Part shown: piece after piece, positions 29,565 through 64,000 of the stretch
Numbering within the stretch: position 1 is the stretch's first letter
How the letters are laid out: the number at the start of each line of letters is the position of its first letter
Assembly (NCBI GenBank): GCA_029204225.1
Contig: CM055109.1
Span: 23,648,422-23,712,421, forward strand
Reading direction: 5' to 3'
Source of the DNA: Diphasiastrum complanatum
Lineage: Eukaryota > Streptophyta > Lycopodiopsida > Lycopodiales > Lycopodiaceae
Length of the DNA stretch: 64,000 bases
Program-made: the position numbers and the translations under genes
Notes under the pieces: generated by a model
Told to the model about the DNA's origin: nothing
The model's database searches: none
What the model saw: the letters and a program-made list of their open reading frames with translations, nothing else

Positions 29565-29685
29565 TTTTTTATTTTTTCCCATTTCTGCAAATTGGTTTTT
29601 GCATTGATATTGGGCTTTAATTTTTTCCAAGCAGTTGATTAGGACTTGGACCTTCGGCTACAAAATTATAATAGGACTGGTATAT
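29565..29685 (+). repeat. Long inverted repeat, left arm, outer piece
   Basis: Reverse-complementary to about 46905-47023 (shared GGTTTTTGCATTGATATTGGGCT, TTGATTAGGACTTGGACCTT). The arm is interrupted at 29686 by the Copia element and resumes at 35182. Confidence 0.9.
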
Positions 29686-30123
29686 TGTAGGAATCCAGAA
29701 TCAAGACTATTCATTAACACAAAGTATTCTCAAAGAGAAGAGAGAGATGGTTAGATGACCCTCTTGTAGAAACTTGTGGACAGCCAATATGAACAGTAGA
29801 TTGCTTAACAAAAGTGTCTCTCATACAGATGAATGGCTACGTATAAGTAGTCCAAGATGGCTATCTACCTTCATGATTGTTGGCTGTCCAATAACTTGAC
29901 TAATGGCTATCTAGCTACCATAAGTTACATAAAATAATTAAGTACCCCAAATAACAAGTTAGGTACTTAATTCACATGTATAGGCCCCTAGTGGACCCAC
30001 GAGTCCCTACAAGTTAGTTTCATACTAACTTGGGCCTAAAATATAAATGACCATAACAGATCTCGACCTTTTGGGTCATAGTAACCTATGGCTTCTACAT
30101 CATTTACATTTATTATTCTAACA
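29686..30123 (-). repeat. 3' LTR of the complete Copia element (438 bp)
   Basis: Direct repeat of 34739-35181. The plus-strand edges read TGTAGGAATC and TTCTAACA. In element orientation it is the downstream LTR, preceded by the purine tract TTAAGGAGGG (30124-30133). Confidence 0.95.
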
Positions 30124-34109: not shown

Positions 34110-34725
34110 TTCTGAAAATTCAGCTAATAGTAGATGGGAAAAACAGATTCCAGGCCAAAATCTCCAAAAAAATCAGCAAGATCAAAGCTGAATTAATGAG
34201 CACAATAGATTGCAATACACCACATGCAATAGCTCATTCACAAGAAGATATAGGTGGCTGTATTCTACTGTAAAAGCAGAATACTAACTAATATGTAGGC
34301 TTCCAATGAAGCCAAAACCACAACCAAAACTTTTGTGGTAAAATGGTGTGCACTCAATGTGCTAATGGAGCAGATGGTAGGACCTTCTTCCAGGCTCAAA
34401 AACAGAAAAATTTCAGCCACTAAAAATGTGTCAAAAACACATTTGTCTTCAAGGTAGATGGGCGCCCTCTTCCAAGAAGAAAATCTGAAATTTGAAGCAT
34501 GTAATCTGATTTCAATCACATGAAAACTAGTTGAGCATGGGCGCCCTACTGCTGGCTCCCATATGAGTGGAGGTTCCAAGCTTTTCCTTGCAATTTCCTG
34601 CACAAAAAACAAGGAGGAGCCGAACAGTTTTCTCTCCACAAAAATCAGAAAAATTCTGATTTTTATGAACCAAAAGAGGAAAAATGTGGCTACCTATTGG
34701 GTGCAAGCAATCAATTCTAAATAAT

Positions 34726-34738
34726 GGCTCTGATACCA
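34726..34738 (-). promoter_or_regulatory. Primer binding site (TGGTATCAGAGCC)
   Basis: On the minus strand, directly abutting the 5' LTR at 34739. Complementary to the 3' end of plant initiator tRNA-Met. Confidence 0.95.
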
Positions 34739-35181
34739 TGTAGGAATCTAGAATCAAGACTATTCATTAACACAAAGTATTCTCAAAGAGAAGAGAGAGA
34801 TGGTTAGATGACCCTCTTGTAGAAACTTGTGGACAGCCAATATGAACAATAGATTGCTTAACAAAAGTGTGTCTCATACAAATGAATGGCTACATATAAG
34901 TAGTCCAAGATGGCTATCTACCTTCATGACTGTTGGCTGTCCAATAACTTGTCTAATGGCTATCTAGCTACCATAAGTTACATAAAATAATTAAGTACCC
35001 CAAATTACAAGTTAGGTACTTAATTCACATGTATAGGCCCTTAGTGGACCCACGAGTCCCTACAAGTTAGTTTCATACTAACTTGGGCCTAAAATATAAA
35101 TGACCATGGTTACACAGATCTCGACCTTTTGGGTCATAGTAACCTATGGCTTCTACATCATTTACATTTATTATTCTAACA
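34739..35181 (-). repeat. 5' LTR of the complete Copia element (443 bp)
   Basis: Direct repeat of 29686-30123 with about ten substitutions and one 5-bp indel by eye (ATAACAG versus ATGGTTACACAG). In element orientation it lies upstream of the primer site. Confidence 0.95.
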
Positions 35182-35751
35182 TATATGCATTTTGTTCTTC
35201 TGTTGCACTTTGCTAAAATACATGTTTTGCCGGTAATGAGTTAGCCCACCTAGTAACTTTGACCATTGTGTCAATTTTATGGGGATCACTCATGCAAACT
35301 TGGTCGATCAATTGGAAGTTCCCATAATTGGGAGAGATTTTGGCATTTCCCCATAATTCGTTGATCTCTCTCGTTCGAGACAAATCGGCTAGTTAAACAA
35401 TATTATAATGTTATATTTAATGGTTTGGAATTCCATTGATGTAAAGATGCAACCGTTTAATTAAATGAAATACCCGTTTAACCCTATTATTAGGTCCTTC
35501 TTGAGCAATGATATTTATAGGTCAAATTGGTTGGCAAAGTAACTGAATTGCTTGGTGGAATTCTGGAAGTGATACATTGCCATTTTTGACCCGAAATAAA
35601 TTTCCTTTTTACTAAACTGTTGACGGGCAACTGTGAATCAGTGATTTGTGTCCAAGAATTCACAATTTTTTTGGCCAAGTTAGGGTCAAATTTGCCTGTA
35701 ATTGGAAACATTTTTTGCCAAATATAATAGGAAATTTTTATTGATATAGCC
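35182..35751 (+). repeat. Long inverted repeat, left arm, middle piece
   Basis: Reverse-complementary to about 46338-46904 (shared GCCGGTAATGAGTTAGCCCA, AATGGTTTGGAATTCCATTG). Interrupted at 35752 by the hAT element. Confidence 0.93.
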
Positions 35752-35840: not shown

Positions 35841-36122
35841 ATATAATAATATATTTATTATTTAATATTTTTTTTAATTTTTTTTTACCTAAACCTACCC
35901 GCCCCCCTCGCATTTCCTCTGAAATTTTTTTGAGCCCTCTCCGCCCTGCCATCACTGCTGGTTTTTCTTGCCTGCCTTTGATTCCTTGCGTCGCCCATCG
36001 CCCACGCAACGCCCTGCCTTGCATCTGATTTCCTTTGCCCTGCATTCGCCCATTTTCAGCGTCTCTCCAACAGTGAACCCTGCTGTTTTTTTTCCAGCAA
36101 TCCATCCCTCATTTCATCTGCA

Positions 36123-38714
36123 ATGGTGCAATCCGACCTTTCCGGTCTGTGGGACGAGGTAGACATTGTCAGGCGGGTTGCCGACAAGGCCAACAAGACC
36201 GGTCAGAAGATCGTGCGCTGCCGATACTGTCTCGTCGAGTTTGCTGCATCCCTCACTCGCCTTAAAGGCCATCTGCTCGGTGCACGCGCCAAAAATGGTG
36301 CCACCTTGAATGCTGCCCCTTGTGGCAGCATGACCGTCCCCGACAGGCAGCGACTACTGGACACCTACGGGCCGCGGCTCGTGGCAGGGGAGAACACCAT
36401 TTCGGAGGGCGTTCTCCGATTTTGCACCGCTCCTTATGTGACTAACCCAGAGTTGCTGCCTGCTTGGCTGGCACGCACGAGGAGAGGGAGTGCATCCTCC
36501 TCTGGTCCCTTTGCCCCTCAGACAGCTCTGCCTCATGCACCCCCATCTGCTCAGATTCCGGTGGATCCCGTCCCATCGCGTCCGACAGTTGCCACTGCGG
36601 TTCCACCACCACCCACTGTTGCTCGCACTCCACCAGTCTACGACTTTCTCATGGACTCTCCGCCACCCGAGCAGGCCCAGGATGGTACTGGGCGGGCCTT
36701 CGAGGATGTGGAAGAGATCCCTTCTTCCTTCCCTTCCCATCCGGATGACCTCCTCAGCCAGCAGTTTTCGTACCCCATGCCAGATGTTGCCCCTCCACCA
36801 GTGCACCCCACCTATGCTGCTGCACCCATCCCTGCCAGTGCATCCCACTCTCCCCATTCCACGTCTACAGCCGATGCATCCACCAGCGCCCAGCCTGTCG
36901 CGTCATCGTCCATTCCCGTCACGGTTGGTGCACCGTGCTGGAGGTCCACCACCCGTCGTCCACCAGGGAGAGCCCTCGTGCAGCAGACCATTCGCGGCGC
37001 GCATCAGCCGCACATGGACAGAGAGGCCACACAGGCCGTGGCCAGTCTGGTTTACGAGCTGAACCTGCCCTTTGCCATCACCGACTCTGAGCCCTTCAGA
37101 AGGGCCTTCCGCCTTGCATAGTCTGTCAGCCCTAGCTGGAGAGTCCCTAGTTCAGAGGTTGTCCGCACACACATGCTGAGGGATAGGGTCGAGTCCTTGT
37201 CTAGAGAGATGGAGCCTCTGCGTCGGCACTGGGCCACTTACGGTTGCAGCATCATGTCCGATGGCTGGACTGATGTCAGGAGGAGGCCGATCCTCAACAT
37301 ACTGGTCTCCAGCTGCATGGGCACACAGTTTTTGAGGGCAGTGGATTGCAGCAGGGGGGGGAGAGTCATATCTGCAGAGTTCATGTTTGATGTCATCAGG
37401 TCTTCCATCCTAGCCATAGGCCCACAGCATGTCGTCACGGTGGTGACGGACAATGCCACGAACTGCATTCAAATGGGTGTACTGCTAGAGGCCGAGTTCC
37501 CTCATATTGTTCATACCCCCTGTGCAGCCCATGGCATAGACCTTTTGATGGGGGACATTGGAGCACTTCCCTGGGTTAGAGCCATCGTCCGGGAGGCCCT
37601 CTTCCTGGTGACTTTTGTCACCAGAAAGAGGCGTGTTCTTGCCATGTTCCGGGTGTTTAGCCATCTGGACCTCCGTAAGCCAGCCCCCACGCGCTTTGCA
37701 TTCGACTTGGTGGTCATCGACCGTTTGATCAGGTGCAGGGCCCAGCTTCTACAGATGGTTGCCAGTGATCTTTGGGGTGCCAGTACATTTCCGCACACTG
37801 AGGATGGGGAGCACTTTTCTTCCACGGTGAGGGGAGACCAGTTCTGGAGGGATGCACAGACATTGTCAGGACTGCTTCGACCACTCTACATTGTGCTCCG
37901 CATGGCTGACAGCGAGGGGTCGACACTTGGACTGGTGTATGAGCTCATGGACCGGATTGGACAGTTCCTGCAGCTGCCCATCTTGCAGCCAGAGAGGTAA
38001 GCGGTACAGTGTTGCAATTGACCTTTATCTTTTCAGTACTTGCTAGTTTGTTTTTCTGTCAATGTTAAGCTTTTTCGTAATGCCCTAAACCACACGCCCC
38101 TCACCTGCAGGATGACAGAGCTGAAGTTCATATGGGAGACGCGATGGAACTACTTCCACAGGAGTATCCACAGCGTTGCACACATGCTGCATCCCCTCTT
38201 CCTCTCTCCGACACAGATCGCAGACAGGGAGCTCGAGGCCGATTGGCTTCAGTACATTCACAGGGTGGGTCCACACATAGGTTTGGATCCTATCAGGCTC
38301 ATGGAGGAGCTCGCTGCATTTCGTTTCGGCATGGGCACATTTGGCCACCCGGCTGCCAAGGATCCAGAGAGGAGGCAGCTACCCATTACCTGGTGGACCA
38401 TGTTCGGTAGCACATACCCATCTATACAGCGTCTTGCACTGCGTGTCCTTTCTCAGGTATGCATCTCATTTTATCCTCCATTTTTTGTGTTTCGTTGAAG
38501 TTTCACCTTTGCCACAATGTGCTGAAGTATTTCAATGCACGCACCACAGGACTGTGCTGCCTCTGTGTGTGAGCGTAATTGGAGCACATGGGCACTGATT
38601 CACACGAGGAGAAGAAACCGGTTGTCAGTGAGTCAGTTGGAGCGGTTGGTGTTCTGTAGCACCAACGCACGTCTGCCAGGAGGCTTCCGACCATTACGAG
38701 CGCATTGCAGGTGA
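36123..38714 (+). pseudogene. hAT transposase, spliced, one nonsense codon
   Basis: Exon 1 36123-37996, exon 2 38111-38456 and exon 3 from 38550, with GT-AG introns of 114 and 93 bp in matching phase (AG|G joins exons 1 and 2; phase 0 joins 2 and 3). Domains: an N-terminal BED-type zinc finger (CRYCLVEFAASLTRLKGHLL, residues about 38-57), a Pro-rich spacer (about 110-300), then the RNase H-like core with SIMSDGWTD (first Asp; DUF659 region), VVTDNATN (second Asp) and the CAAH motif. The C-terminal hAT dimerisation block includes CERNWSTW, with the catalytic Glu, and RRRNRLS, LERLVF. All three catalytic acidic residues are present. A TAG at 37119-37121 interrupts exon 1 between the spacer and the core; a C-to-T change of CAG would explain it. 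Without further splicing the frame ends with TGA at 38712-38714; see the next entry for a likely fourth exon. Confidence 0.92.
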
Positions 38715-38812
38715 TAAGCTAATCTTTCATAGCATGTTGGTTGACTCCTGGTATGTTGGTTTCATTTCTTGAAAAAGTTGTCTCTCTGACATGCAAATTT
38801 TAAACCTTGCAG

Positions 38813-40441
38813 ACGAAGATATCTGATTTGGAGCGCCAGGTTGACTTGCCTACGGACAGCACCCATCCCATGCCTGCAGATGACCTGGGCACACAGTTGA
38901 TGGCAGAGAGAGAGAGGGAGCTTGCCGAGATGAGAGAGAGAGAGCTTGGGCTTGAGCACAGAGAGCCCCCATTGTATGAGGCAGATGAGCCAGTGTCAGA
39001 GGATGAGCATGATGAGGATGAGCCCATTCGGGTTGTGTTTGCCAGACCAGAGAGGGATGAGGCAGATTATACAGGTGCAGGGCACACGCCACGGGCAGGG
39101 GTCACAGGTGCATCACGTGGCAGAGGTGGGACACATGGCACAGGTTATACCGGCAGACAGGCAGGGCACACAGGGGGGGGCAGTGGCATACCTACCTATG
39201 TCGACATGATGGAGGAGGCTCTTGATAGAGGGCAGAGTGGTTTAGATGCTGGTCCCGCAGATGTTTGGATGCGTGCAGCACAGAGTCATGGCCGTCACTA
39301 CGACAGCACACCAGAGGAGGCACCTGATGACTTTCATTGCACAGATTGGGAGGCCATGCAGGGTCTACAGGGTGCACATGATGAGGCACGGGATGAGGCT
39401 TGGGTTGATTCAGGGGTTGGTGCACAAGATGATTCAGAGGTCGGTGCACAGGATGATTTAGAGGCTGGTGCACAGGATGAGTCCCAGAGCCCAGAGCATT
39501 TGTATTCGGATGCCCAGCTGGCCGACTTGGTTGCCACATTGGATTCAGAGGCCCAGCAGATGCCGAGTGTCAGGGCGCCCCCATCATCTCTTGCCAGCAT
39601 GCCACACACAGAGTCCCAGCCAGAGCAGCCGCATGAGGTGCCTACAGTTCCTCCAGCTCCTCAGAGGGTGTATGTGCGTCGCACAGCTCCTCCAGTGCCA
39701 CCGATGCCATTTAGGCCTGCATCCCCTCCATCGCCGTCCACTTCTGCAGCACCAGGTCTCCATGGCAGGCCACCATCTGTGCCCAGGTTTTCTCTTGCAG
39801 CGCCCACATCCACAGTGGCTCCTCCAGTGGCAGCACCCACGTCACATCCTCCTCCTTTGGCAGCACCCAGGATGTACCAGTACCGGCCACCACAGCGCCC
39901 CTTTCAGTACATATCGCCACTGTACTCGCCTCCTGCACAGCCAGTTCCTCCACCTGCAGCAGCCCCACGGGCACACACTCCACGAGCTCATCCTCCTCGC
40001 TCAGTTGCACAGGGAGTTCCCTCTTTTGCTTCCCTATCCCAGCCGGCCTCAGCTTGGGCCCAGCCTAGCCAGCCAGGTGATTTGCATGGGGTTGACGAGG
40101 CATTGACAGCTCCTCTTGTCCGCAAGAGACCAGGCAGGCCCAAGGGTGCACCGAACAAGAAAGGCAAGGCACAGAAACTGCCAGGGAGGAGAGGACGACC
40201 ACGCAGGGCTCCAGGTACAGGTAGAGGTGCAGTATCACAGCCAGTTGGAGCAGGTGTTGTTGGTTTGGCCTGCTTGGGGGCTGATGCGGAGGCTGATTGG
40301 GAGGATGAGGATGACGAGTCTTCCCCCTCGGATACACAGCCCATGCCAGTTCCAGACAGGCAGAGATATCGGCTGCGAGAGTCAGCTCGGGGCCCTGAGT
40401 TGTCTCCAGAGCATTCGTCTGAGTCAGAGCCAGAGCATTGA
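38813..40441 (+). CDS. hAT C-terminal extension or second protein with two AT-hooks
   Basis: An open frame of 542 codons beginning at a good splice acceptor (CCTTGCAG at 38812), 102 bp after a donor-like CAG|GTGATAAG at 38711. The first in-frame ATG is about 60 bp inside, so it is best read as the last exon of the transposase. However, joining it to exon 3 as the sequence stands gives the wrong frame; one base would have to differ. It starts with a charged coil (ISDLERQVDL, MAERERELAEMRERELGLE), then acidic and Gly-rich segments, three copies of VGAQDDSE-like repeats near 39415-39480 and a long Pro-rich region. Two AT-hooks follow, RKRPGRPKG (near 40110) and GRRGRPRR (near 40190). It ends with an acidic Ser/Glu tail. 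AT-hooks bind the minor groove of AT-rich DNA. Their presence here suggests a DNA-binding or chromatin-targeting role (inference). Confidence 0.7.
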   Translation, partial: TKISDLERQVDLPTDSTHPMPADDLGTQLMAERERELAEMRERELGLEHREPPLYEADEPVSEDEHDEDEPIRVVFARPERDEADYTGAGHTPRAGVTGASRGRGGTHGTGYTGRQAGHTGGGSGIPTYVDMMEEALDRGQSGLDAGPADVWMRAAQSHGRHYDSTPEEAPDDFHCTDWEAMQGLQGAHDEARDEAWVDSGVGAQDDSEVGAQDDLEAGAQDESQSPEHLYSDAQLADLVATLDSEAQQMPSVRAPPSSLASMPHTESQPEQPHEVPTVPPAPQRVYVRRTAPPVPPMPFRPASPPSPSTSAAPGLHGRPPSVPRFSLAAPTSTVAPPVAAPTSHPPPLAAPRMYQYRPPQRPFQYISPLYSPPAQPVPPPAAAPRAHTPRAHPPRSVAQGVPSFASLSQPASAWAQPSQPGDLHGVDEALTAPLVRKRPGRPKGAPNKKGKAQKLPGRRGRPRRAPGTGRGAVSQPVGAGVVGLACLGADAEADWEDEDDESSPSDTQPMPVPDRQRYRLRESARGPELSPEHSSESEPEH

Positions 40442-45409: not shown

Positions 45410-47023
45410 CTTATCTTAAGATTTTCTTCGTTCATATTATAGAGAATTAACCTGTATAATCAAAAAAAGATTTATTGAAGATTTATACAAGAGAAACGAT
45501 TTTTAGAAAACAATTTCATTATTCGTTTATGTGACATTGTCCAAGGTCAAGGGGTACTAAAACTTACCTTCCAAGGAATCACATGATATGTTAATAAATT
45601 CACAAATATATTCTTATTATAAAGTAGCTTGCCGAGTTTCCGGTTTTGTAAATTTGAGATACCCCTAAGGGGATCATGACCAATATCTCAAATTTCTGTC
45701 AGAACACCCTTTATGACCAATAGTTTTGGCATCATTTAGATTTACGACCTCACTATGGTCAAACGGATCCAGTTAGTTTCACACCCCTTTGGAATTGCCT
45801 GCGTCTCATACCACAAGTTTTTCCTCCAAGAAGACGATCCACTTGTTGATCTAAACGTCAAAAAATCAAATTCTTGGAACAACTCATTTAACTATTGAGT
45901 TGGGTAAATCGGTTTTATACGAAATTCTGAATCACAAATTCCAACTTAAGTTTTCTTTCACAATTTTTCCTAGTCTTCATGGTCACTAAAGGGAATCGTA
46001 ACATTACCATAGAATCCCTGAAGCCGACAGATTAAGAAATGGGAAAGAATGAGTAGGAATTTTTGCACGTAAGAACAAATTTGAAACATTGATTCAACTA
46101 GAAAGTTTCTAATCACGGGGTGAATTAATTGTACTTGCAATACAAGTCGCAATCAATTCGCCCTAGAATTATTTAGTTGAATCCAACTTACAATTTTTTC
46201 GGTTCTTTAAGCAAATTACCTCTAAAATCAAATCTCGGAAATGTTCTGCCCATCGAGTCTTATGATCTTTTCCAACTGATTTTTAGGGTGGTTACAGTTA
46301 GTTATCAGTTTGTTGTTCTCGGCTTTTGGTGCTCAATGGCTATATCAAAAAAACTTTTCCATTATAGCTGGCTTAAATTTTTTCCAGTTACAGGCCAATT
46401 TGACCCTAACTTGGCCAAAAAAATTGTGAATTCTTGGACACAAATCACTAATTCACAGTTGCCCATACAACAATTTAGTAAAAAAGAAATTTATTTCGGG
46501 TCAAATATGGCAATGTATCACTTCCGGAATTCCACCAAGGAATTTAGTTACTTTGCCAACCAATTTGACCTATAAATTTCATTGTTCAAAGAATGACCTA
46601 ATAATAGGGATAAACATGTATTTCATTTAATTAAACGGTTGCCTCTTTGCATCAATGGAATTCCAAACCATTTAATATAACATTATAATATGGTTTAACT
46701 AGCCGATTTGTCTCGGACGAGAGAAATCAACGAATTATGGGGAAATGCCAAAATCTCCCCCAATTATTTCCAATTGATTGACCAAGTTTGCATGAGTGAT
46801 CCCCAGAAAATTGACACAGTGGTCAAAGTTACTAGGTGGGCTAACTCATTACCGGCAAAACATGGGATTTTAGCAAAGTGCACCAAAAGAACAAAATGCA
46901 TATACCAGTCCTATTATAAGTTTGTAGCCGAAGGTCCAAGTCCTAATCAACTGCTTGGAAGAATTTGAAGCCCAATATCAATGCAAAAACCATTTTGCAG
47001 AAATTGGAAATAAAACCAAAGCT
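45410..47023 (-). repeat. Long inverted repeat, right arm (uninterrupted, ~1.6 kb)
   Basis: Reverse complement of the three left-arm pieces. It preserves both empty insertion sites: GGCTATAT at 46338-46345 (hAT target) and ATATA at 46900-46904 (Copia target). The arms differ by scattered substitutions, a ~215-bp indel and the left-arm tandem copy. Inner junctions are near 42886 and 45410, outer ends near 29565 and 47023. I could not identify the family. It has the form of a fold-back element or of two inverted copies of one repeat. Confidence 0.92.
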
Positions 47024-48840
47024 TAACCTCCAGCTATGGTGAGGGTACAAAAGCAGTAGCTTAACCACCAGATACGCGAGTCCAAATAATGTGGTAAGAC
47101 CGGGAACCCTGCTATGTCAAGCTCAATAAAATGAGTCCAGTAGTAGCCGGGTTTAACCCCAAGCTGTCGCCCCCAAGTACGGTCGAGATATGCCTGATAT
47201 AAGATGCGCCTGATATACTGATGAGTACCTGAGGGGAGCTCTGTATTGCAGATACCAAATGACTCAAGGAGGAAATGGGATGCCTGAGAGAACCAGGATA
47301 GTCGATAACCCTGGTCATGAAGAGAGTGTGAGGAAACAAGTGCTGTCTGTGTATATCTCATATCCTCATCGGGCAGAGCTTGGATTCTCTGAATGTATGT
47401 GATAAGCTGGAACGCGGCATATATCTGAATGGGTGGAACGACAAACTCTGCAGGAAGGATCTCATGTGGAACGGAGGGCTTCGCCCGAATCATACGGGCT
47501 AACATGGTGGTCTGCAATCGTGAAATGCTGGCCCAATGTGATGAAGGAAGGCCGGTGCACCATGTCTCTGCTGCATATAAGTCTGTGGGGGTGACAATAG
47601 TATCAAAGAGTCTACACTTACTGCGAGCATCTCGGATGAGCTTCCTGAAACAGAACCGCTCAAGTTGAACAAGAGAGGAATGCCCCTTCCCAAGTCGGGT
47701 GGTGGTTGCCTGCCGCATGCTGAAGGTAGGACCAGAAAAGAGTATCCCCAAATAGGTATAAGAGGAAACTACCTCTAAGGCCTGTCCATCTAGGATGAGC
47801 TCCTGGCGCTGCATGAAGGCTCGAGAAGTGTTAAAGACCATAAACTTGGTCTTCGCAGTGTTCATCCCCAACCCCCATCTGGTACAAAATCCCTGTAAAC
47901 AATCCAGCTGCCTCTGCAAACCCTCTTTGGTCGGGGATACTAGTACTACATCATCCGCATAAAGGAGAATAGCAATCAGAATGATGCCAAGTTTACAGCC
48001 ACCCCCGCCACACTGTGAGATGACTCGCTCTGTGAGAACATGTCCGATCATGATGGTGCGGTAATTACCAGGAATCATGGGATCACCATTTTTATGAATA
48101 GGGTGGATGATGTTGGTGCACCAGGATGAGGGAAACTAGAGACAACGGCGGAATTGAGGAGAGTGGCTAGTGTGGGAGCAAGGAGGTCGGAAGCATGGGT
48201 TTGGAATTCAGATTCAAGGTCTTCGATATCTCTTGCTTTATGGGACTTCATTCTCTTGATGGCCGTAAGTACCATGTCAGATGTGAAGAAGGTGAACTCA
48301 GAGGGGCGTGGGGAGATAGAGATGGGTGCGTCAGTGGGTATGGTATATAGTTTGGTAGCGTATTCAGTCCATATGCGAAGGTCATCCAGGAGGGGTGGTG
48401 GAGCACGAGGGATAAACTCACGCCAAAAGGCGCCTGAAGAGGAACTGAAGAGAAGATCAACAAGACGCGTTCCTTCAGAATCATCATAGATACGCTTTTT
48501 TCGGTGGAGTGTGCAACGGTAAGAGCGCCTGGCGGAGTGGAGGAGATGAGGATCGTGACTGCGGGCATGGGTGAAAGCTGATGAAGAGAGCGACATTCAG
48601 CATCATACCACGGGGGGTGTGGGGGTCGTATCGATGAGGAGCGGGGGCCTCTGCTTTTATGGGGTTTAGATGGAAAAGCAAGGGAAGGAGCCGTGTCCAC
48701 TCTCCTGACCACCGAAACATTCATGAGGCGTGGAACATTTGGATTGGCTTTTTGATCGATCTCTTCCACTGTCATAGGGCCATCACCATGGTTCGTCTGG
48801 TCCACTTGAAGATTATATGGTCTGCATCAAGTTCCGTGGA
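47024..48840 (-). pseudogene. LINE (non-LTR) reverse transcriptase remnant
   Basis: Minus-strand pol of a non-LTR retrotransposon in two or three frames. 48600-48800 has an endonuclease tail (PPWYDAECRSLHQL). 48075-48500 has the RT N-terminal region (FTSDMVLTAIKRMKSHKARD). After a frameshift, PGNYRTIMIGHVL at about 48060 is followed within 30 residues by LLYADDVVLVS (47950-47961), so most of the RT palm between these motifs is deleted. The C-terminal part is long and intact (GLGMNTAKTKFMVF, SSYTYLGILFSG, DLYAAETWC, QTTMLARMIRAKPSV) and ends at a stop at 47023. No poly-A tail is evident; the 3' end abuts the right arm of the inverted repeat. Confidence 0.88.
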
Positions 48841-51655: not shown

Positions 51656-51725
51656 ATGGCACTTTTTCAAGAATACACTGTATTAGAAGAAGAGATCGAT
51701 GAAAACTATGACCCATCAGATGAAG
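51656..51725 (+). CDS. CEP164-like: CEP164-like exon 1 (coding part)
   Basis: [20 protein letters not shown] and SDE plus one base of the next codon. Donor GAAG|GTACTT at 51726. The phase-1 junction restores EEIMEY with exon 2. Confidence 0.88.
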
Positions 51726-54700
51726 GTACTTAAACCATTTCAGATTCTCTTTGTACTAATGTTGCTACTTGTGAGCATAGGCTTAAGCTATTCATGCAAA
51801 TTTCACATAAGTTTGGCCTCGATGTCCCTTGAAAGTACAGTAGCAGAGAATCGATACCTCCAACCAGAAAACCTATACTTCTTTATGCAAGTTCGCTAAT
51901 GGCAGAATGGTTTAGCTAGATCATGAACGACCTGGCAATTGAGATCTAACACCTGCCACAGAAATTATGGAGTACGCAATTTGGCTTGGAATGGAGCTGC
52001 CTAAAGAAAATGGCTTGCTTTGGGTAGCCAGAGAAGGATTACAGGAGCCATTGCCAGAGCACTGGAAACCCTGGTACTTTTTCATTTCAAGTAGTTGAAG
52101 TAGAATGCATTTTGTCTCCATCACATTCAGGCTGTTTTGAACAGCTTTCTCAAGTCTGTTTGATTTTCCTTTCAAGGAACAATATGTCAATATAGATTAA
52201 GATTTTTGTGTCCTATACACAATCAAAGCTTCTATTCCTGATTGTGAAACCATAGCTACAGATGGCTTTTGTAAAGAGGGACACATTTGCCATTCAAGCC
52301 AAACCAAAATTTTTAAACCGGAAAATAGATCAGCATAAAAAATTGTCCATCTTAAGTTTTAGAATCCTCTTGGATATCACACTTGAAGGAGCTGAACCCA
52401 ACTCACCAAATCCAAAGTTCTTACAAGTTTATTTAGGTAACACCAGTATGGATGTCCAAGAATGCATTGCCAGATAAATGTTGTCACATCCCATTGAATG
52501 GGGGTACCAATCTTCTGACGATCCACTGTGGCATTGATATCATTTTCTAACCAAAAACCTGATTTGTTTTGGCAGTTCTGTAGAATCAATATGCTTTGGC
52601 TAATCTAGAATATGCTGAACAGGAAGGCTTGTGATAATGAACAGGCTGCAGTCAATATATCTGGCTGCATACATCAAGCATGCATGCTCTTTTAGGCATT
52701 TGATAAACACTATGACTTACAAATCAGCTGTCAAACTATGCTCGTTATGAAGGCCTTCTGCAAAATATCCTGGCTAATCATGTCTGTAAATGTTGATAGA
52801 AGAGGGCATGCCGTGAATTTTTGGTTAACTTACCACACAAGTACCAACAATTTGGCAGCCCAATAAAGATCATTGTCTGCTTATTAATCTGATTTCCAAT
52901 CCACAGTTAGGAACAACAGAGGACATCCGCCATGTGATAGAAGCTCAGACATGAGGAGGGGTTGTTGAGGTTCGAAAGTAGTGATGTACAGGACATATCG
53001 CAAGAAATGGAATTTCAAGGGATAAAGAATATCTCTTTAGCGAGAAGAATTGAATTGGGGGAAAGACTTTATTCATAACCTAATAAGAGTGAAGTCTAAA
53101 GAGGAAAAATCCTGTGCCAAGGAGACTGACCTGACCACGACTATTTGATTTGCTTCACTAACTCTCATTAAACATGATGAACCAAAGGGGCATTCAATTA
53201 CTCGAAAACCTCCATGTTGTTGGTCGAGGTTGATAACACAACATTTGCTATCATAGTATGAGTGTTAGAAGGAAAAAGGAGAGATTATGAGATGAATTTG
53301 TCCATCTTGTTTTTAGTGTTGCCCTATGTGGGGAGTAGGCGAGATTCGTGAGGTTTGCTTGAAATGTGAATAAAAAATGACAATTCCATATTTTGCTCCA
53401 TGATTCTCTATCAATCTGCTGAAAAGATCAGGAATACTTTGAGAAGAGAGGCACCATAACCTATCAATGTTGTTAAGTAGCACTGGAACGATGTTCCGCT
53501 GGTGGAGTGTTCCAGAATGTCAAAACGATGTAAAAAGAAAAACCAGAATTTTTTTGTCAATCCTGCAGAATCCGCCTTTTGGGCGCACTTCTGTTGGACA
53601 TTGTTGAGGTTGTGGAGAGAGCAATATGAGGCCAAAATGCATGTGTGAGCACTCTATGTCAAGGTAGCGATCTATGGAAGGTGATTGTATCACAATGGAG
53701 ATGGAAAAAGTATGTGTCAGTTTTTTAAAGGTTAGAATTCTTCAAATGCTAGCCTCTATGTCAGTTTTTGGATGGTACTTTGTTTTATTTCCCTGATTTT
53801 TAGATGGTAATTTAGCCCCTTGATAGTTACAAATGAAGCCACAATTGATCTAGAGCTAAGCTATAAAAGTAGCACATAAGCAAGACTTAAGCTATGAAAG
53901 CAGCACATAAGCAAGACTTAGCCCTAGAAAGCAAGAAAGAGAGAGATTAAGGAGGCTAAAGAGAGAGATCAATACCATCAGCGGAATAACAAATCAATGA
54001 CACAGTTTCCCTACTTATAGCCAAGAGGAAGCCCTAAAAGGAAGCTTCCGGTGGCTAGGGCCCAACTGGGAGGGATAATAGTGCGCCCTCCAAGAAGGCC
54101 CCCCCACTCTCCAGTAATATGTCCAAATGGCCTAATAATGAATAATAAGGCCAAAGGACAACCATATAGTCTAAGTGTCACTAATGAATAAAAAGGGCCC
54201 AAGGCCTGCTTATGCATAAAGTAAAGTAAATGTAAATGGACGCGGCAAACGTAATGAGCCAAGTCCATAACTCTCCCCGACACAAAAAAAGAAGACCCAA
54301 CTGCTGAAAAGAAACTGGATCAAACAACAGCAAGCCCTGGTGCATCAACAACTAGAACAACATCTGATGTAGAGGAATCAACAAGTGCAGCAAGAGCACG
54401 AGCCTGATCCGCAAGTGATGGTGTATGATAAAAGACATCAATAGGCTCCCATGTGGCCTCCTCAATAGGACGACCATCCCACTGGACCAAAAACTGAATC
54501 TGCTGGCGGCGTCGACTATGGTATAGACGAACCTGTAATATAGCAGCAGGTAAAAATGGAAACAACTCGGGAGCAGTAGGAAACTCAGCATCACAAGGAG
54601 CGTCATCCTCAATAGCAGCACGTAATAAACTGACATGGAATACATCACAGGCTCGTGTGGAAGCAGGAAGCTGTAAGCGATATGTAACTGGACTAAGAAC

Positions 54701-57700
54701 CTCCAAAATGCGATAAGGCCCATAATAACGTGGTACAAGCTTCTCAGTAGAAGCATGGCCCTGGACAAAATGATGACGTGCAAACCGTAGGCGTAGATAA
54801 ACCATATCTCCAAGCTGAAACTCAACATGGCTACGGTGACGATCAATCGAGGTCTGATAACGCTGCTGAACATGCTGTAAATGAGAACTAGCCTGGGTAA
54901 TAAGCTCTCGGGCACCTGATAGAAAGGATGCAAGTGTGACAGGTGTATCCTCAGGAGGGAGAGGAATGCCAGGTAATAGAGGCGCATAGCCATGAGATAA
55001 TAAAAATGGTGAGACCCCTGTGCTGGTACTAACAGAGCTATTATAGCTATACTCTACTAAACATAAATGCTGATCCCAATCCTTCCCAGAAGGAGTAACA
55101 AAATGGCGTAAATAATCCTCAAGGATCCTGTTAAGGACCTCAGACTGCCCATCAAAAGTAGAGTGATAAGCAGAACCCATAAAAAGCTGTACATCCAAGA
55201 TACGCATAAGCTCTGTCCAGAATATGGATGTAAACTTACTATCCCGATCAGAAAGGATAGTACGAGGAAATCCATGCAGGCGGCTCTGATAGGAACAAAC
55301 GTGCACATTGCTCTGCTGTGATGGTACTGCGAACTGGTATAAAATGTGCCTGTTTCGAGAACCTGTCAACTACCACCATACATGAATCGTGACCACACTG
55401 GGTACAGGGAAGGCCAAGGAGAAAGTCCATAGATATATCAGTCCACTGGCGATGAGGAATAGGCCAACTTTGGAGCAAACCAGCAGACTTAGCACGGGAG
55501 TACTTATTACGAAGACAAAAAGGGTAGGTACGAATAAGTACAACAAGCTCAGATCGAAGAGAGGGCCAATATAAATGGTCTTTGAGACGAGCATAAGACT
55601 TCTGAAAACCAAAGTGACCCCCAACAGGGGAGGAATGAGCATCCGACAACAATTGGGAACGGATATCCAAGGAACTAGGAATACGAAGAGAATCATAACG
55701 ATAAAGACGGTTGTCAACAATGGAGTAAACCTGATGAGGACAGGACGAAACATGTGGGGCAGAACTATAAACATCACGAAAATCAGAATATGTAAGGTAT
55801 GCAGCAGGTAGATCATCAAGCCATGTAGGAATAGTAGAAACGAGTGTATTCAACAAAGCTGGAATACAAGATAATGCTTCAGCAGCAGTGTTAGCACGAC
55901 TAGGACGATACAATATAGAAAAATTGAAAGATTGTAAAAACTGCAACCAACGAAACTGACGATCACCAAGGTCACGTTGAGAAAATAGATAACGTAAAGA
56001 CTGGTGATCAGTAATAATGTCAAATGGAACTCGATAAAGATAATGGCCCCACTTCTTAAGAGCATAGATAATAGCAAGAAGCTCTTTCTCATGTACAGAA
56101 TAACATTGCTCATATGAGCGAAGACGACGCGACTCATAAATAATGCAGTGTGACTGGCGAAGCAAAGCACCCAAACCAACATTACTAGCATCAGTCTCAA
56201 CAAGAAACTTTTGATCAAACTGGGGTAAACACATAACGACAGCATCAACAACAGCACGATGAAGAGTATCAAACACTGATTGACAATCAAAAGTCCAAAG
56301 AAAAGTACTAGACTTCTTCAAAAGTGCATGAAGAGGAGTTGCAATAGTGGCAAAATGAGGAACTGGATGACGAAGGTGAGTGGCTAACCCAAGGAACATA
56401 TGAACATGATGAACATCAGTTGGTATAGGCCAATCCTGGATGGCCTGAACCTTATGAGGGTCCAGACGAATGTGCCCATTACAAACAAGAAAACCAAGAA
56501 ACTCGATTTCGGCAATAGCAAAAGAATATTTAGACAACTTAGCAAATAACTGGTGATGTACAAGTAACTGAAATACAGAGGAAAGATGGGAAACATGCTC
56601 AGCGAGAGACTGGCTTAAAATAAGAATATCATCAAAATAAACCAAGACACAATGACCAAGAAGCGGACGCATGACGTTATTCATCACATTTTGGAATGTA
56701 GGAGGGCCATTAGTAACACCAAAAGGAAGCACACGAAATTCATATAAACCAAGATGAGTACGAAAAGCAGTCTTATGTTTGTTAGAAGGGTGCATCCTAA
56801 TTTGGTAATATCCAGAACGAAGGTCTATCTTGGAAAAGATTTTAGAGGTATCGAGCTGGTCAAAGAGGTCATCCATGTGCGGAATAGGATACTGATTACG
56901 AATAGTCAACTTATTTAAAGCACGGTAATCAATAAAAAGGCGTTTGGTACCATCTTTCTTACTAACAAGGAGAACAGGGGCACCGAAAGGGCTGTGACTA
57001 GGAACAATGAGACCCTAATCTAACAAGGCAGTAATATGGAGCTCAAGCTCATCACGCTCAGATCGAGTCATACGATAAGGGGGACGGGAAGGAGGATGCA
57101 AGTCAATATGATGGTTCACGTCACGTAATGGTGGTAGCGTCGTAGGGTTCTGAAAAGACAGAAGCATACTGATGTAATAAGTCAGAGATCACCTGAGGAA
57201 CAGCTGCTGGAGTAGAAATTGGAGGAACTGGTACTGCCCGCTGAACACATAATAAGGCTGCACTATGAGCCTTCGGCAGGCTACGTCTAAACTGCTTCCC
57301 AATAATCAACTGGAAGTCTCCCTGAGAATCAATGCCAACAAGTGAGTGTGTAACTGCATCATGTACAAATGTCAATGTCTGCTGTGTCAAGTCCAGTGTA
57401 ACGGCTCCAAGAGATGCAAACCAATCAGCACCAAGGATAAGATCATAACGCTCCATAGGAATAATGTAAAGATCTGCCTGTCCAGAAAAATATCCAATGC
57501 GGTATGGTAAACGCTGAAACATCTGAGAACTAGGAAAAGAATGTGAACTGGCAACCTCAACTGTGAGAGGCTGTGGAGTAGGAATAGGTGAAGCACGGAT
57601 CCGACTAGTGATATAACTGCTGATAAAAGAATGAGTGCTGCTAGTATCATCTAAAGCATTATACTCACGACCTGTAATGCGTACACGTAACCGAATGGAG

Positions 57701-60700
57701 CGAGGACCAGGATGCCCTGTCCAAATAGCATAGGCAAGCTGAGCATGGCAAGTAGCAGGAAGTAAATCAGTGGAATGCTCAGAGGATAGATCAGGCTCAT
57801 GAGAAATATGAATGTAGATATCGGAATCATCTGGAGTAGTGCCCTCATGGTAAAAAACAGCAGTAGTAGTAGGGAGAGGCTGACGGCAATCACGGGCAAA
57901 ATGGTCAGGACTCTTACAAGTTACAACGAAAGCAAAGACGCTTCTGCTGAAGGTCAACGAACTCTGCAGACGTGTAACGTCGGACAAAAGCAGGTCGAGG
58001 GGTTGGAGGACGAGGAGACGAAGGGACAATGGAAAGAGTTGGAACAGAAGGGGCAGGTGTAGGGGTGGACGTAGCGGGAAAAGATGAAGCAGAAGGACGG
58101 GATCGGGAGAAGCGGGAAGGAAGGGTGTCAGAGTACTTGTGCTATAAAGTACTGGCAAGAGACATCGCCTCAACAAGTGTGGGAGGACGGAAGGAAAAAA
58201 CATCATAACGTAACCACGAAGCCCAATGGAATGAGAAATAAGCTCAGTGGGCTGTAGATCTGCGAAAAGATAAGAAGGCTCCATAAATTGATCTGTATAA
58301 GAAGCAAGGTCACTGGTCTGAGTGAGGCTACGGAATGCATCACATTGGCGGTCGAGCCACTGAGCATCAATCATAGCATGACGGAGGTCACGGCGAAAGG
58401 TATGCCATGTATGGAGCCCTTCCCGATCAGGATCAGCTCGATAAACTCGCCACCACGTGGCGGCGCATCCATCTAAGTGTAAAGCAGCCAACTGGATCTT
58501 TTGAGGATTAGTCTTACGGTAGATCTGAAAATATGTGTCAAGCTTAGCAAACCAATTCTCTAATAAGTTCCCGTCAGAGGAACCGGAATAGGTAGCAAGC
58601 TGTATCCTATCACGAAAGTCTCGAGCAAAGTGTGTCTCAGGAACTGGGGGACGTGGAAAGAAACCAGGAGGTGGGTTAGGTGGAATGGATGGTCCACCAC
58701 CAGGCTGACTAGCAGAAGAAGATGGAAATCCAAATGGAGGGGGGGAGTCCCAAATGAAGGAAAAACAAGAGCTTTACCAGGACCATGAGGCTGTAAAGAA
58801 TCAATCTGCGACTGCATAGTAGCAAAGCTGGTCATAACTGTATCTAAGCGAAGAACGAGGCCAGAAAGGGTATCATCCATGCGACAAAACTGATCGGATA
58901 AGTTTTCCTGAGTAGTCTCACTTGGGGTAGGTGAATGTGCCATAACGATAGTGGAAGGAATAGACGAAAACTTGAGGGAGCCGACACTCGTCGTCACCCC
59001 AAATTAGTCTATTAAAACCACTATTATCACAACTAAGAAAGGACAACAATCAGCAAATGAAAAAAGTGAAAATGAAGGCTGTAAAAATGTGCTGGACAGC
59101 CAGGAGGCAAGTGACAAATTGGAATATCAAACAGAGTTGGAATTCCGTGAAATTTGGTTGAGGATGGGCGCTGGAAAGCCTGTTGATGAACTGTGACATA
59201 TGGCTACAGAATGGATAAAAGAATAGGCGAAAGTGACAAGTTGGAAGGTTTGGGGCAGCGATGAACAGCCTGAAGGAATTTGGCAATTCGGGATAGCAAA
59301 CGATTGCGGAATTGGGTGATTTTTGGATGAGGATGGGAGGCTGGGAAATAATTGTGGAAGATGGCTGCAAACTCGTAAAATGTTGGATGAAAGTGACAGG
59401 TCGGAAGGCAGGGACAATCGATGGAAATGAAGGAGGAGGAGCGCTGGGCAGCAAGAAGAGAGGGAGCAGGAAGGAGGACAAGGGGCAACGATGGAGTAGG
59501 GCTGTCAAGGCAGCAATGGAGCTGTAGGAGCAGCGACGGAGCAGGGCAAGGTAGCAAAAGAAAATAAAAAAATTCCCAAGATTATGCTCAGGAAAATGCT
59601 CTGTTACCAAGTTACGAATGAAGCCACAATTGATCTAGAGCTAAGCTATGAAAGCAACACATAAGCAAGACTTAAGCCATGAAAGCAGCACCAGTAATAT
59701 GTCCAAATGGCCTAATAATGAATAATAAGGCCAAAGGCCAACCATATAGTCTAAGTGTCACTAATGAATAAAAAGGGCCCAAGGTCTGTTTATGCATAAA
59801 GTAAAGTAAATGTAAATGGACGCGGTGAATGTAATGAGCCAAGTCCATAACTTTGATCATTCTCAATCAAACCGTAAATTTGGATTCCACAATAATTATG
59901 ACATCATAAAAAGGTTGCTGAATGATTTTTAGAAGGCTCCTTCATAGCTTGTTACCATGTACATGATTGTAAACAATAAATTGGAGTCTGGACTATGAGA
60001 AAATCAAACACCTTGCATCAATGATCACTTAGCAATGATACTAGTTCGATTCACAGTTCACAATGAGTTTTTAACAGCTTATATGTGTTGTTCCTTCCCA
60101 CGCTACCACACACATGAAAAACAAAATCCAAAAAATAAAAAAGAAAGGGCACTGTTTTGCACTTCAGATTTCTAGAACACGCATTCCAAAATGCAATCGG
60201 AACACAATTTTCTGGAATGCTGCATATCTATGTGATGTTACGTTTTTAGTTGCTCTTAGTACAATATTAGTTTTTACAAAATGGAATAGATTGTTGATCG
60301 ATCGAAGGTGGTAAACCTTCATGTTCGCTTATGGGTGTCATGAAAGTATTTTCAAGGTCACTTTGTATCATTATAGATGCATATTAGCATTGCAAGCTAT
60401 CTAAGAATCACAAGAGTGATTGTTGTTCTCTAATGTAGGACTAGTGGCCCTTGTTCTTGTCACATCCTCCATAAATTCCACTACCACCTATCTTCCACGC
60501 ATCTTCCTATTCTTTTCTCTCCAACTAAATTAGAAACCATTATTAGCACAATCATGGATTTTGATATGAATTGAGCATAAATGATCATGAATGACGATCT
60601 AACAACAATCTTCTATGAAGAATGACAAATGATGTCAAATATAATCAATGGCTAAAGTCTATTCAAAACCAAATAATGAGTGCTAGAAGAGGGAAGGATT

Positions 60701-62920
60701 GTTAGATGCCAGTCCGACTTTGACGTATTTCTGACACGATCAGTTACTAGGGGCCGAGGGCCAGGGTATTGGTGAGGCCAGTAACTGGGATGGACACCAG
60801 AGGACCAGTTGGGTTCGGTGCGTCACAGGTCGTGACCTGGTGTAACCGACTGACAGGATGTCAGTAGGCGGAGTTATGACCATATGGACCCTAGCCGTCA
60901 GTAGCGGATAGGCCTTTGTTGTGGATGAGCAACTAGCTGGTAGTTATGCTGGGTGACAGTGTGTCACAATTCCATGACGGGGAACGGGGGTGGTGCCTCA
61001 AAGTCACGCACTGATTGCGGGTACAGGATTTCATGGAACCATGGGGACTGATCACCCCCTGCATGGCGGCCATGTGTCCCCGGTTCAGAATAGCAATCAG
61101 ATAGACTCAAGAGGAGGGCACCTATGGACATCAGAGTTTGAGAGCTCTTGGGAGATTGGAGTGCAACACAAATCATCCACCAAATTGGCTGCCAAAAAGG
61201 AAGTACAACTAATAGCAAGGGATAGGTGGAGAAGATGCTGTGAAAATCTTCTTGAAATAGAGCACCAACAAGCAAGAAGATCCCAATGTCGAAGAGAACT
61301 GTGTAAGGTAGGGCGCCAGCCAAGAAGAAGGCATGAATCATTCCAAAGGTAGTGAAAATCTAGCAACTAATATCACCAAAGTCCGCGTGAAGTAGGGCAC
61401 CAACTAGTATCATTGAAGTATGAATTGACATTACATGAGACAGTCTAGCAATCTTCCATAAAGAATGATAAAGAGCATCACATATCAACATTAGGGCCCT
61501 ACAAGCATTAGCAAAGGTAAGAGTTCTCCTAGGAAGAGCCCAGGCAATACCAAATCAATACGTTGGAAAATGAATGTACATAGGGCCTACTTATACTCCT
61601 TTGAGAAGCCCTAAAGTGTGATTTGAAAATCAAGGGAGGTAGGACTTTTGGAGGGAAAGTAGTGCACCCTCCTAAAGTCCACTCCAAATACTTATCTAAT
61701 AAAAGTTAGGCCCTTGGTCAGTCCTAAATATAAATGCATAGAGAAGGTTTTTAGGCTTGTACATGAATAAAAAGGGCTTAGGACCAACAAATGAATAGAA
61801 GAGCTATTGAAGACATTCTACTCCACTAGGGCCAAGTTTGAGTGTCTCAACAAAGCTTGAAAGAAATGCCATTGCCACTGAAAATGTGGTCATTTATGGT
61901 CTGAAAACCAATTCTATTAACTTATGCCATAGTACTTTAACACAATTTTATACATGTATAGGGTTCCCACTATAGCCTCTACGTTTAGCACATAATGACG
62001 TAACAATTTAATTGTTGATGGTTAGTAAACAAAACCTTAATATTATGCATCTTTGCATTATAAGGTACACATTTTTTTGATTTGTATACCAAATTCTACC
62101 TCAGTTTGATTTCTTAAAGTTGATGGCCTCAAAAGTAACTCTAATCAATATGGTCTGAAAACCAATTATTAACTTATTCATAGTTTGACACAATTCTATA
62201 CATGTACTTGGTTCCCATTACAGCCTCTACGTTTAGCACATAACGACGTAAGAATTTAACTGTTGATGGTTAGTAAACAAATCCTTAATATTGTGCATCT
62301 TTGCCTAAAAGTAACTCTAATCAATATAGTTTACTCACACCATGCTATGAACTTTAGCTAGTACGGTGATTTTGTACAATTAGAATTGTATTTGCAAAAG
62401 CTGTTTTATGTTTAGCAAATTAGTTATGTAGCTACTTTTGGGCCGATTATGGATTGATTTTCTATTAACTTTTAAATGAAGTGTTTAGAGTATTGGGCTT
62501 GCATTATCCAAACTAGCAATTTCTTTTTTTAGAAGATGATGTTCCTTTCATTTATCTTTTTAATATTTACACGCATCCAAAATGATGTATGTGCCAATCG
62601 TTGATGTCACATTCCATCAGTCTATTCATGTTATGAAAAAAGATCAAAGATTGCCATGAACATCATCATATTCATTATCATATGATTGTATTGTGGTTTT
62701 TTCAATCTTGGTAACGTAAAGTATATTTTGTATAACATCCAGGTAATACTTATGAATTTAAAACTGAGTATATGAAGATTTGGAAAAGGATTTAACTTAC
62801 TATTTCCTTCTTGAATATTTTGTTTCGTTCTTGTAGTCGAACGGAAGAAGATGAAATCTACTACTACAACTTTTTCACTGGAGAGAGTATTTGGGATCAT
62901 CCTTGTGATGATTTGTACAG
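51656..62920 (+). CDS. CEP164-like: CEP164-like WW-domain protein, 5' part (three exons)
   Basis: Exons 51656-51725, 51962-52073 and 62837-62920 join in phase (GAAG|AA, then CCTG|T) through GT-AG introns of 236 bp and 10,763 bp, giving 88 complete codons. Residues 10-23 are the acidic [15 protein letters not shown] block. Residues 24-50 read [11 protein letters not shown] and LLWVAREGL. Then PLPEHWKPC leads into a WW domain with W58, the aromatic triplet YYY69-71, W80 and P83 ([20 protein letters not shown]). This order is the N-terminal signature of CEP164, the distal-appendage protein of mother centrioles and basal bodies whose WW region recruits the tubulin kinase TTBK2 in animals (family knowledge). 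The start at 51656 (CGCATGGC) is chosen because CEP164 begins about ten residues before the acidic block; the frame is open further upstream to 51518. The gene continues past 64000: exon 3 ends with a donor (TACAG|GTTTGG) and no later exon was recognised. Role in this plant, presumably sperm basal bodies, is inferred. Confidence 0.9.
51962..52073 (+). CDS. CEP164-like: CEP164-like exon 2
   Basis: Acceptor CTGCCACAG at 51961, then [37 protein letters not shown] and the first two bases of a Cys codon. Donor CCCTG|GTACTT at 52074. It carries the residues linking the acidic block to the WW domain and the first conserved Trp. Confidence 0.92.
52074..53819 (+). other. CEP164-like intron 2, proximal part
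   Basis: AT-rich intronic DNA up to the chromovirus insertion. Short ORFs (for example 52262-52477 plus, 52377-52589 minus) have no recognisable domain. Confidence 0.5.
53825..54272 (-). repeat. 3' LTR of the intronic chromovirus (448 bp)
   Basis: Shares long blocks with 59610-59852 (ATGAAGCCACAATTGATCTA at one end, CCATATAGTCTAAGTGTCAC in the middle, AAGTCCATAACT at the other). Confidence 0.93.
54320..55369 (-). pseudogene. Chromovirus integrase C-terminal half and chromodomain
   Basis: A 349-codon frame: [18 protein letters not shown] (second catalytic Asp), [19 protein letters not shown] (Glu), the GPY/F region ([40 protein letters not shown]) and a chromodomain-like end ([35 protein letters not shown]). 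A frameshift near 55290 separates it from the upstream integrase zinc-binding and first-Asp region. Confidence 0.93.
55248..57120 (-). pseudogene. Chromovirus RT, RNase H and integrase N-terminal half
   Basis: RT begins near 57120 ([15 protein letters not shown]), with a stop near 57015 before [21 protein letters not shown] 553-codon frame (55248-56909) follows with [16 protein letters not shown], the catalytic [11 protein letters not shown], RNase H residues [29 protein letters not shown] and TDHQSLRYL, then integrase. The integrase zinc site has H residues ([12 protein letters not shown]) but the first Cys is Tyr (TYPFCLRNK). The first integrase Asp is in [15 protein letters not shown] and RNase H catalytic residues are intact. 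Confidence 0.95.
57121..58997 (-). pseudogene. Chromovirus gag and protease
   Basis: N-terminal gag (58560-58997) reads [10 protein letters not shown], then [19 protein letters not shown]. After a break near 58560 the capsid block follows ([40 protein letters not shown]). A decayed knuckle ([11 protein letters not shown]) lies near 57900. The protease site reads [14 protein letters not shown] where a D-T/S-G motif is expected, followed by the conserved [15 protein letters not shown]. The frame ends at 57121 before RT. Confidence 0.9.
59598..59609 (-). promoter_or_regulatory. Variant primer binding site TGGTAACAGAGC
   Basis: Minus strand, immediately next to the 5' LTR edge at 59610. One base differs from the usual TGGTATCAGAGC. 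Confidence 0.88.
59610..59852 (-). repeat. 5' LTR of the intronic chromovirus, internally deleted (243 bp)
   Basis: Matches both ends of 53825-54272 but lacks about 205 bp between GAAAGCAGCA and CCAGTAATATG, where the left copy carries its GC-rich middle. Confidence 0.92.
59853..61479 (+). other. CEP164-like intron 2, middle part
   Basis: Intronic DNA. The interval about 60710-61110 is distinctly GC-richer and contains many CCAGT/ACTGG and GTCAGT words, suggesting another decayed insertion. No domain is recognised. Confidence 0.4.
61480..61860 (-). mobile_element. Diverged LTR remnant related to the intronic chromovirus LTR
   Basis: It shares the order of words seen in 53990-54230: CCTACTTATA, GAAGCCCTAAA, GGGAGG, AGTGCACCCTCC versus AGTGCGCCCTCC, and ATGAATAAAAAGGGC. 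No partner LTR or coding region is next to it, so it may be a solo LTR. Confidence 0.5.
61897..62335. repeat. 254-bp tandem duplication in intron 2
   Basis: TGGTCTGAAAACCAATT...CAGCCTCTACGTTTAGCACA...TGATGGTTAGTAAACAAA occurs at 61897 and 62151. The second copy lacks about 60 bp near its end. Both copies finish with AAAAGTAACTCTAATCAATA. Confidence 0.9.
62837..62920 (+). CDS. CEP164-like: CEP164-like exon 3 (WW domain)
   Basis: Acceptor TTCTTGTAG at 62836. The first base completes the Cys codon, followed by [20 protein letters not shown] and HPCDDLYR. The second WW Trp and the Pro three residues later are present. Donor TACAG|GTTTGG at 62921. Confidence 0.93.
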
Positions 62921-63288
62921 GTTTGGGGTGACCTCCACTTTCAACAAGACATATATACAATCGTTTTTTTGGGATCATAATGTGATGTGGTTCTCTTAGC
63001 TCTTTTCCTTGAAAACTAGCAAATGAAGTTCTAAGTACCTCATAGTATAATAACTCCCATCTAACTAAGATGTGGAAAGTGAAAAGTGATGATGCTTAGC
63101 TTGATCCATCTAAGTTTTTGTCTGTTATACCTATATTGAGAATCATTGGGAAACTAGTTTTCTAATGTCGCACACACAACCACCACTATATGCAACTTTG
63201 GTTTGCGAAAGAGGTTAAAAGTATGCAATCTATAGAGGTTGATAGAGAAATGTAAACTTGGCATCGATGAGTATTTGACAGCTAGAAG
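62921..63288 (+). other. Start of CEP164-like intron 3
   Basis: Intronic sequence after the exon 3 donor. I searched for the next expected exon (CEP164 continues with a charged coiled coil) and found no convincing acceptor-plus-frame before 64000. Confidence 0.4.
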
Positions 63289-63462
63289 GCTAACTTTATG
63301 TTAGGAGCATATTTACATAATAAGCATTGGAAACTTGTCGAACATATGTTTAGATTGTGTAAAAGTTTGAAAATTGCTAACTTTATGTTAGGAGCATATT
63401 TACATAATAAGCATTGGAAACTTGTCGAACATATGTTTAGATTGTGTAAAAGTTTGAAAATT
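63289..63462. repeat. Near-perfect 87-bp tandem duplication
   Basis: GCTAACTTTATGTTAGGAGC through AAAGTTTGAAAATT occurs at 63289-63375 and 63376-63462 with essentially no differences, indicating a recent event or an assembly artefact. Confidence 0.95.
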
Positions 63463-63550
63463 TTCTAATATTTAAGGCTCTCATGCACATGCTTAGCCCA
63501 TAGTCTCCTTGTACAAAGAGTAAGAAGGAGAGCAAATGAATAATAATATC

Positions 63551-63594
63551 AAGAAGAAGAAGAAGAAGAAGAAGAAGAAATGATGATGATGATG
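63551..63594. repeat. (AAG)n/(ATG)n compound microsatellite
   Basis: Ten AAG units (63551-63580) pass directly into a short ATG/GAT run. The long low-complexity ORF on the minus strand here is a by-product. Confidence 0.95.
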
Positions 63595-64000
63595 AAACAT
63601 AATCAAACAAAAAGATGAAGAAGAGGATTATTATTACGACAACGATGATGACAATGATGAACAATGTTTCATGATTCAATTGTTGAAACCTTGAATCAAG
63701 TTAAATCGGTGTAGTTTGAATCAGCCAAATTCGAGTTGGAAAATAAACTTGAGTCAAAATAATTTTTTATCCAATTTTTTTTTTCTAAAAATTTATTTCC
63801 ATTTTGGGTATAATCTTCGTTTAATTCAATGTGCAAACGTCTCCTATATTTGATCCATGCTAGTGCAAAAATATGATTTGATTTGAATAGGACCTTCATT
63901 GATTAGATGATCCATGTGAATTATCGTAGTATGCAACGACATATTTACAAGTGTCTGACACCTTATTTATAGTGCCATAGGGTCCAAATTAGAGCTAGTC

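Follow-up and report, generated by a model that had tools for sequence, protein, structure and literature searches.

The 5' end of a CEP164-family gene in an apparent land-plant genome, with a gypsy retrotransposon in its second intron

The window analyzed here, a 64-kb stretch of genomic DNA taken as a whole, contains the 5' end of what we read as a genuine land-plant CEP164-family gene, the product of which would most likely reside on the transition fibres of sperm basal bodies and act there in docking and in the recruitment of a proline-rich partner; we assign this reading a probability of about 0.77. In animals, CEP164 anchors the base of cilia. The assignment of the encoded N-terminal domain to the CEP164 family is strongly supported by sequence comparison, and we infer the expression of the gene, its remaining exons, and the localization and partner of its product.

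Structure and identity of the CEP164-like gene

Three coding exons, the third of them followed by the beginning of a further intron, were recognized near the end of the window. The features of this region are as follows:

51656–51725, plus strand: coding exon 1, 70 bases, encoding residues 1–23 and one base of codon 24
51726–51961, plus strand: intron 1, GT–AG, phase 1, 236 bases
51962–52073, plus strand: coding exon 2, 112 bases, encoding the helical part through HWKPC, with the Cys codon split
52074–62836, plus strand: intron 2, GT–AG, phase 2, 10,763 bases
53825–59852, minus strand: Ty3/gypsy LTR retrotransposon inside intron 2, recognized by its LTRs, target duplication, and Pfam matches
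62837–62920, plus strand: coding exon 3, 84 bases, encoding the WW domain; its last two bases, AG, start the codon aligned to human R93
62921–64000, plus strand: start of intron 3, up to the window end

These positions, borders, phases, and lengths confirm the three-segment model of a preliminary description of this DNA. The spliced exons 1–3 give an 88-residue translation and two bases of codon 89. The exons were free of frame breaks, and introns 1 and 2 had intact borders at both ends; when the borders were shifted by up to 2 bases each, the sites listed above were the sole combination of a GT or GC donor with an AG acceptor at each junction. The start codon is a choice and is unproven, because the reading frame continues open upstream of the exon 1 ATG as far as a stop at 51473, with a further in-frame ATG at about 51518.

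The 88 residues were searched against the PDB (177,635 distinct sequences), and the best 60 of 93 matches at E values up to 10 were considered. The top two matches were both human CEP164 (E = 4.7e-27 and 7.6e-27); they covered residues 7–88 without gaps, with 43 of 82 residues identical and 60 of 82 positive, the human protein being the sole relative aligned. The CEP164 assignment proposed in the preliminary description is strongly supported for the N-terminal domain. Among the best 60 of the 93 matches, the next molecule after CEP164 was PRP40, with 35 bits in the WW part only. Pfam placed the WW domain at residues 54–83 (E = 1.1e-8). When the search was limited to residues 1–56, from which nearly all of the WW domain is removed, CEP164 was the only significant PDB match (E = 1.8e-10); the other two molecules among the four PDB sequences listed were designed proteins (E values of 0.54 and 1.7). 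A generic WW-domain protein (PRP40, TCERG1, or others) was therefore rejected, since the similarity extends over residues 7–88 and residues 1–56 significantly match CEP164 alone.

The ungapped match spans the helical bundle and the inserted WW domain through residue 88; the final helix would be encoded 3' of exon 3. To judge from this alignment, exons 1–3 encode the window-covered portion of the composite CEP164 N-terminal domain, which is more than a WW domain. The likeness to the human CEP164 N-terminal domain (PDB 7nwj, 7o06, 7o0s, and 7o3b) consists of 82 ungapped residues including both the helical part and the WW domain, whereas, in contrast to the human protein, the window gene is known from its N-terminal 88 residues alone. 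The long coiled-coil part that follows this domain in CEP164 may be encoded past the window end.

The support for each exon was estimated by tblastn, with the letters of the human CEP164 domain from the PDB match as the query and the 64-kb window as the target. The top three matches in the window were exon 2 (44.7 bits, E = 1.5e-9), exon 3 (42.7 bits, E = 7e-9), and exon 1 (23.5 bits, E = 0.046, 9 of 17 aligned residues identical), located on one strand and in the correct order. In 100 windows simulated by a Markov-1 model with the base-to-base transition frequencies of the real one, the top single match did not exceed 25.0 bits, and 23.5 bits was reached in one of them. Exons 2 and 3 are therefore far beyond chance, whereas exon 1 is weak when taken alone. 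It was accepted because it is located 236 bases upstream of exon 2, joins it in phase, and continues the human alignment without a gap.

The last 1,080 bases of the window were scanned for exon 4, i.e., for acceptor AG sites followed by at least 12 open codons in the right phase, a threshold that misses shorter exons. Among 18 acceptor AG sites judged by eye, none was convincing. The segment that most resembled a helix extending the domain, a weak candidate at 63238–63270, reads (R)LIEKCKLGID before a GT and has an upstream pyrimidine share of 0.40; it was not accepted. An AAG run at 63551–63579 was rejected as a simple repeat. Two perfect 87-base tandem copies were found shortly 3' of exon 3 (63289–63462), perhaps owing to recent duplication or to the assembly.

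Ligand-contact residues of the WW module

The human CEP164 N-terminal domain is described as binding a TTBK2 peptide via two aromatic grooves, Y73/W84 and F75/F77 (PMC8752127). Of the six interface residues named in that source and covered by our alignment, four (Y73, F77, S82, and W84) were identical, while F75 and Q11 were both replaced by Tyr; the human residue numbering is supported by the fact that the letters fall at the published positions. Both grooves for the XP motif were thus recognizable in the window protein, with Y73, W84, and F77 kept and F75 replaced by another aromatic residue. The feature in which Q11 holds D10 was not found, Q11 being Tyr; D10 would pair with Glu if the ungapped alignment were extended. 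We treated this difference as a human binding detail and not as a defining feature of the family. In the human assays reported in PMC8752127, the change of Q11 to Pro weakened TTBK2 binding and S82 was dispensable for it. The codon aligned to human R93, a stabilizer of the helical bundle, is split by intron 3, and its first bases, AG, fit Arg or Ser. As the groove residues are mostly kept, a proline-rich ligand is likely for the plant WW module, though not necessarily TTBK2.

The gypsy element and other features of the window

The great length of intron 2, already pointed out in the preliminary description, is mostly explained by one retrotransposon insertion: the gypsy element comprises 6,028 bases, or 56% of the 10,763-base intron (one copy of the duplication counted). 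It is flanked on both sides by the 5-base target duplication TTGAT. Its LTRs (53825–54272 and 59610–59852) were identical at 232 of 243 aligned bases, and the left one contained 205 extra bases in comparison with the other. From this identity, the element is probably fairly young. Pfam matches in its frames included gag, protease, reverse transcriptase, RNase H, and integrase-associated domains; the Chromo match scored 24.8, slightly below the Pfam cut-off of 25.1, indicating a chromodomain-like end. The 5' LTR is adjoined by a putative primer-binding site, TGGTAACAGAGC, which we take to resemble an initiator-Met tRNA primer site. Because the element is located inside the gene's own intron, the gene and the transposon belong to one genome. 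The reverse-transcriptase frame of the element gave 7 pattern matches, none of them confirmed, in a genome-contig collection not meant to hold plants, and the 88 CEP164-like residues gave 15, likewise none confirmed, in a collection of viral contigs also not meant to hold plants.

The plant origin of the DNA, asserted in the preliminary description, is supported indirectly, by the set of transposons and by a U1 spliceosomal RNA gene. According to Pfam, the window contained copia elements with Retrotran_gag_2, the gypsy element with its chromodomain-like end, and a DUF659-carrying hAT-like gene, a combination that we presume to be a plant set. A complete U1 gene was identified by Rfam on the minus strand (8601–8760, 133.5 bits), and we assume it to be plant-like. 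The Rfam scan of the window revealed U1 only, and ARAGORN detected no tRNA in it. The sequence TCCCACATCG, which we take to be the plant snRNA upstream element, was absent from the whole window with one mismatch allowed; TCCCATAAGC was located about 61–70 bases upstream of the U1 start. A non-plant source (a flagellate alga, a protist, or another organism), with which the absence of TCCCACATCG would agree, is very unlikely in our view; against it stand the transposon set, the gypsy member of which shares its genome with the CEP164-like gene, and the resemblance of the U1 gene to plant U1.

Several other repeats and frames were observed in the window. An inverted repeat was formed by 29572–29685 together with 35182–35751 on one side and 46338–47013 on the other, with 91% identity over 687 aligned columns after joining the flanks. 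Its left arm is split by a copia element (LTRs near 29668–30123 and 34721–35181), and its right arm represents the empty site of this insertion, with the 5-base duplication TATAT. Between the arms, the region 35982–40441 (plus strand) was GC-rich, about 51–58% per 2-kb bin, and contained a fragmented hAT-like transposase (DUF659, E = 3e-41; Dimer_Tnp_hAT weak and below the cut-off), as well as a Pro-rich long frame, 38804–40441, for which there was no Pfam match. Direct repeats of about 447 bases (11572–12018 and 15633–16078), 96% identical and 4.06 kb apart, probably represent the LTRs of a further element; at the edge of this pair, the frame 16052–16627 had no Pfam match. A reverse-transcriptase frame on the minus strand (47023–48135; RVT_1, E = 1.9e-9) probably belongs to a decayed non-LTR element, and its neighbour, the frame 48075–48596, also lacked a Pfam match.

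Family placement and proposed function

The encoded part would consist of a flexible acidic leader and a helical bundle into which a WW domain is inserted, the aromatic grooves of the latter accepting a proline-rich peptide. To judge from its animal and trypanosome counterparts, the protein would most likely be located on the transition fibres, also called distal appendages, of the basal bodies that form in developing sperm and may help these basal bodies to dock to the membrane; the WW/helix module would recruit a partner carrying a proline-rich motif, the human counterpart of which is TTBK2. Trypanosoma brucei CEP164A, CEP164B, and CEP164C, compared here by description, share the N-terminal WW domain and are transition-fibre proteins, differing in being three paralogues, and CEP164 proteins are reported to be among the most widely conserved trypanosome transition-fibre proteins (PMC11190437). 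The same source describes CEP164 proteins in Drosophila and Trichomonas, the basal bodies of which are without transition fibres by electron microscopy; the presence of the gene is therefore no proof of the fibres. The species list of its presence/absence figure includes Marchantia and Arabidopsis, and CEP164 is reported as present in the Chlamydomonas genome (PMC4888484). The CEP164 row of a Cildb table was dropped, since it compares animals only.

As to the source organism, most flagellar assembly genes are reported from Cycas and fewer from Ginkgo, whereas Gnetum, conifers, and angiosperms have lost many of them (PMC9023351); the passages of that article on this gene loss make no mention of CEP164. 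On the basis of this literature, the source is most likely a plant with flagellate (motile) sperm, and a role of the protein as a component of sperm basal bodies can reasonably be suggested.

The main rival to the transition-fibre reading is that the gene is a plant counterpart of Chlamydomonas FAP343, an axonemal protein that would have the same N-terminal WW module and be tied to inner-arm dynein b instead of transition fibres. FAP343, compared here by description, has a coiled coil and a WW domain, is weakly related to human CEP164 (5e-10), is reduced in the mbo2 and pf12 mutants, and is grouped with proteins behaving like DHC5 of inner-arm dynein b; the CEP164L record of Physcomitrella is its best moss match (7e-12, Table 3) and might itself be the FAP343 counterpart (PMC11151096). 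The existence of three CEP164 proteins in trypanosomes (PMC11190437) also speaks for this alternative, as does the fact that the window shows only the module shared by CEP164 and FAP343. Since FAP343 is CEP164-related too and the window covers the N-terminal domain only, the distal-appendage role is not automatic. Nevertheless, our protein matches human CEP164 strongly (43 of 82 residues, E = 4.7e-27) and FAP343 is only weakly related to the latter, a rough comparison because the databases and query lengths differ, and we regard an axonemal FAP343 counterpart as improbable.

A decaying relic or partial CEP164 pseudogene, found for instance in a plant that no longer has flagella and showing its decay in the gypsy insertion, is more improbable still, and we give it little credence. 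The 10.8-kb intron with its retrotransposon and the want of a convincing fourth exon in the 1,080 bases up to the window end would fit such a relic. However, large plant genomes commonly have introns filled with transposons, and exon 4 may be located past the window end. No damage is seen in the three exons or at the borders of introns 1 and 2, and the protein has kept its 43 of 82 identities with human CEP164 together with most of the groove residues. The reading as a genuine CEP164-family gene of sperm basal bodies is preferred to these alternatives.

The name CEP164-like is already in use in a land plant, for Physcomitrella patens CEP164L (XP_024400159.1), compared here by description (PMC11151096). 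As this moss record is in print, the gene class is already known and the discovery of the gene is modest; the window gene appears to add one more member to a family for which a moss annotation exists. Among the matches listed in our literature search, no title was devoted to CEP164 in land plants, which is not a claim of absence, as most subscription journals were outside the search. CEP164 was absent from the main text of PMC13360157 and from that of PMC4092220.

The more interesting point is the keeping of a docking protein beside the reported loss of transition-zone components. Non-seed land plants are reported to be without transition-zone complex proteins and Y-links (PMC4092220), and the gene bears on how their cilia function. 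We tentatively suggest, while considering it rather doubtful, that land plants with swimming sperm have, in spite of this reported loss, retained the docking module of CEP164, including a WW domain in which both grooves still work, as part of a pared-down cilium base in which a plant-specific proline-rich partner replaces TTBK2. If this were true, transition fibres would dock the plant sperm basal body without the usual gate. Plant sperm basal bodies are reported to form de novo (PMC9014216), and the CEP164 N-terminal domain in an apparent land plant would offer a testable handle on their docking.
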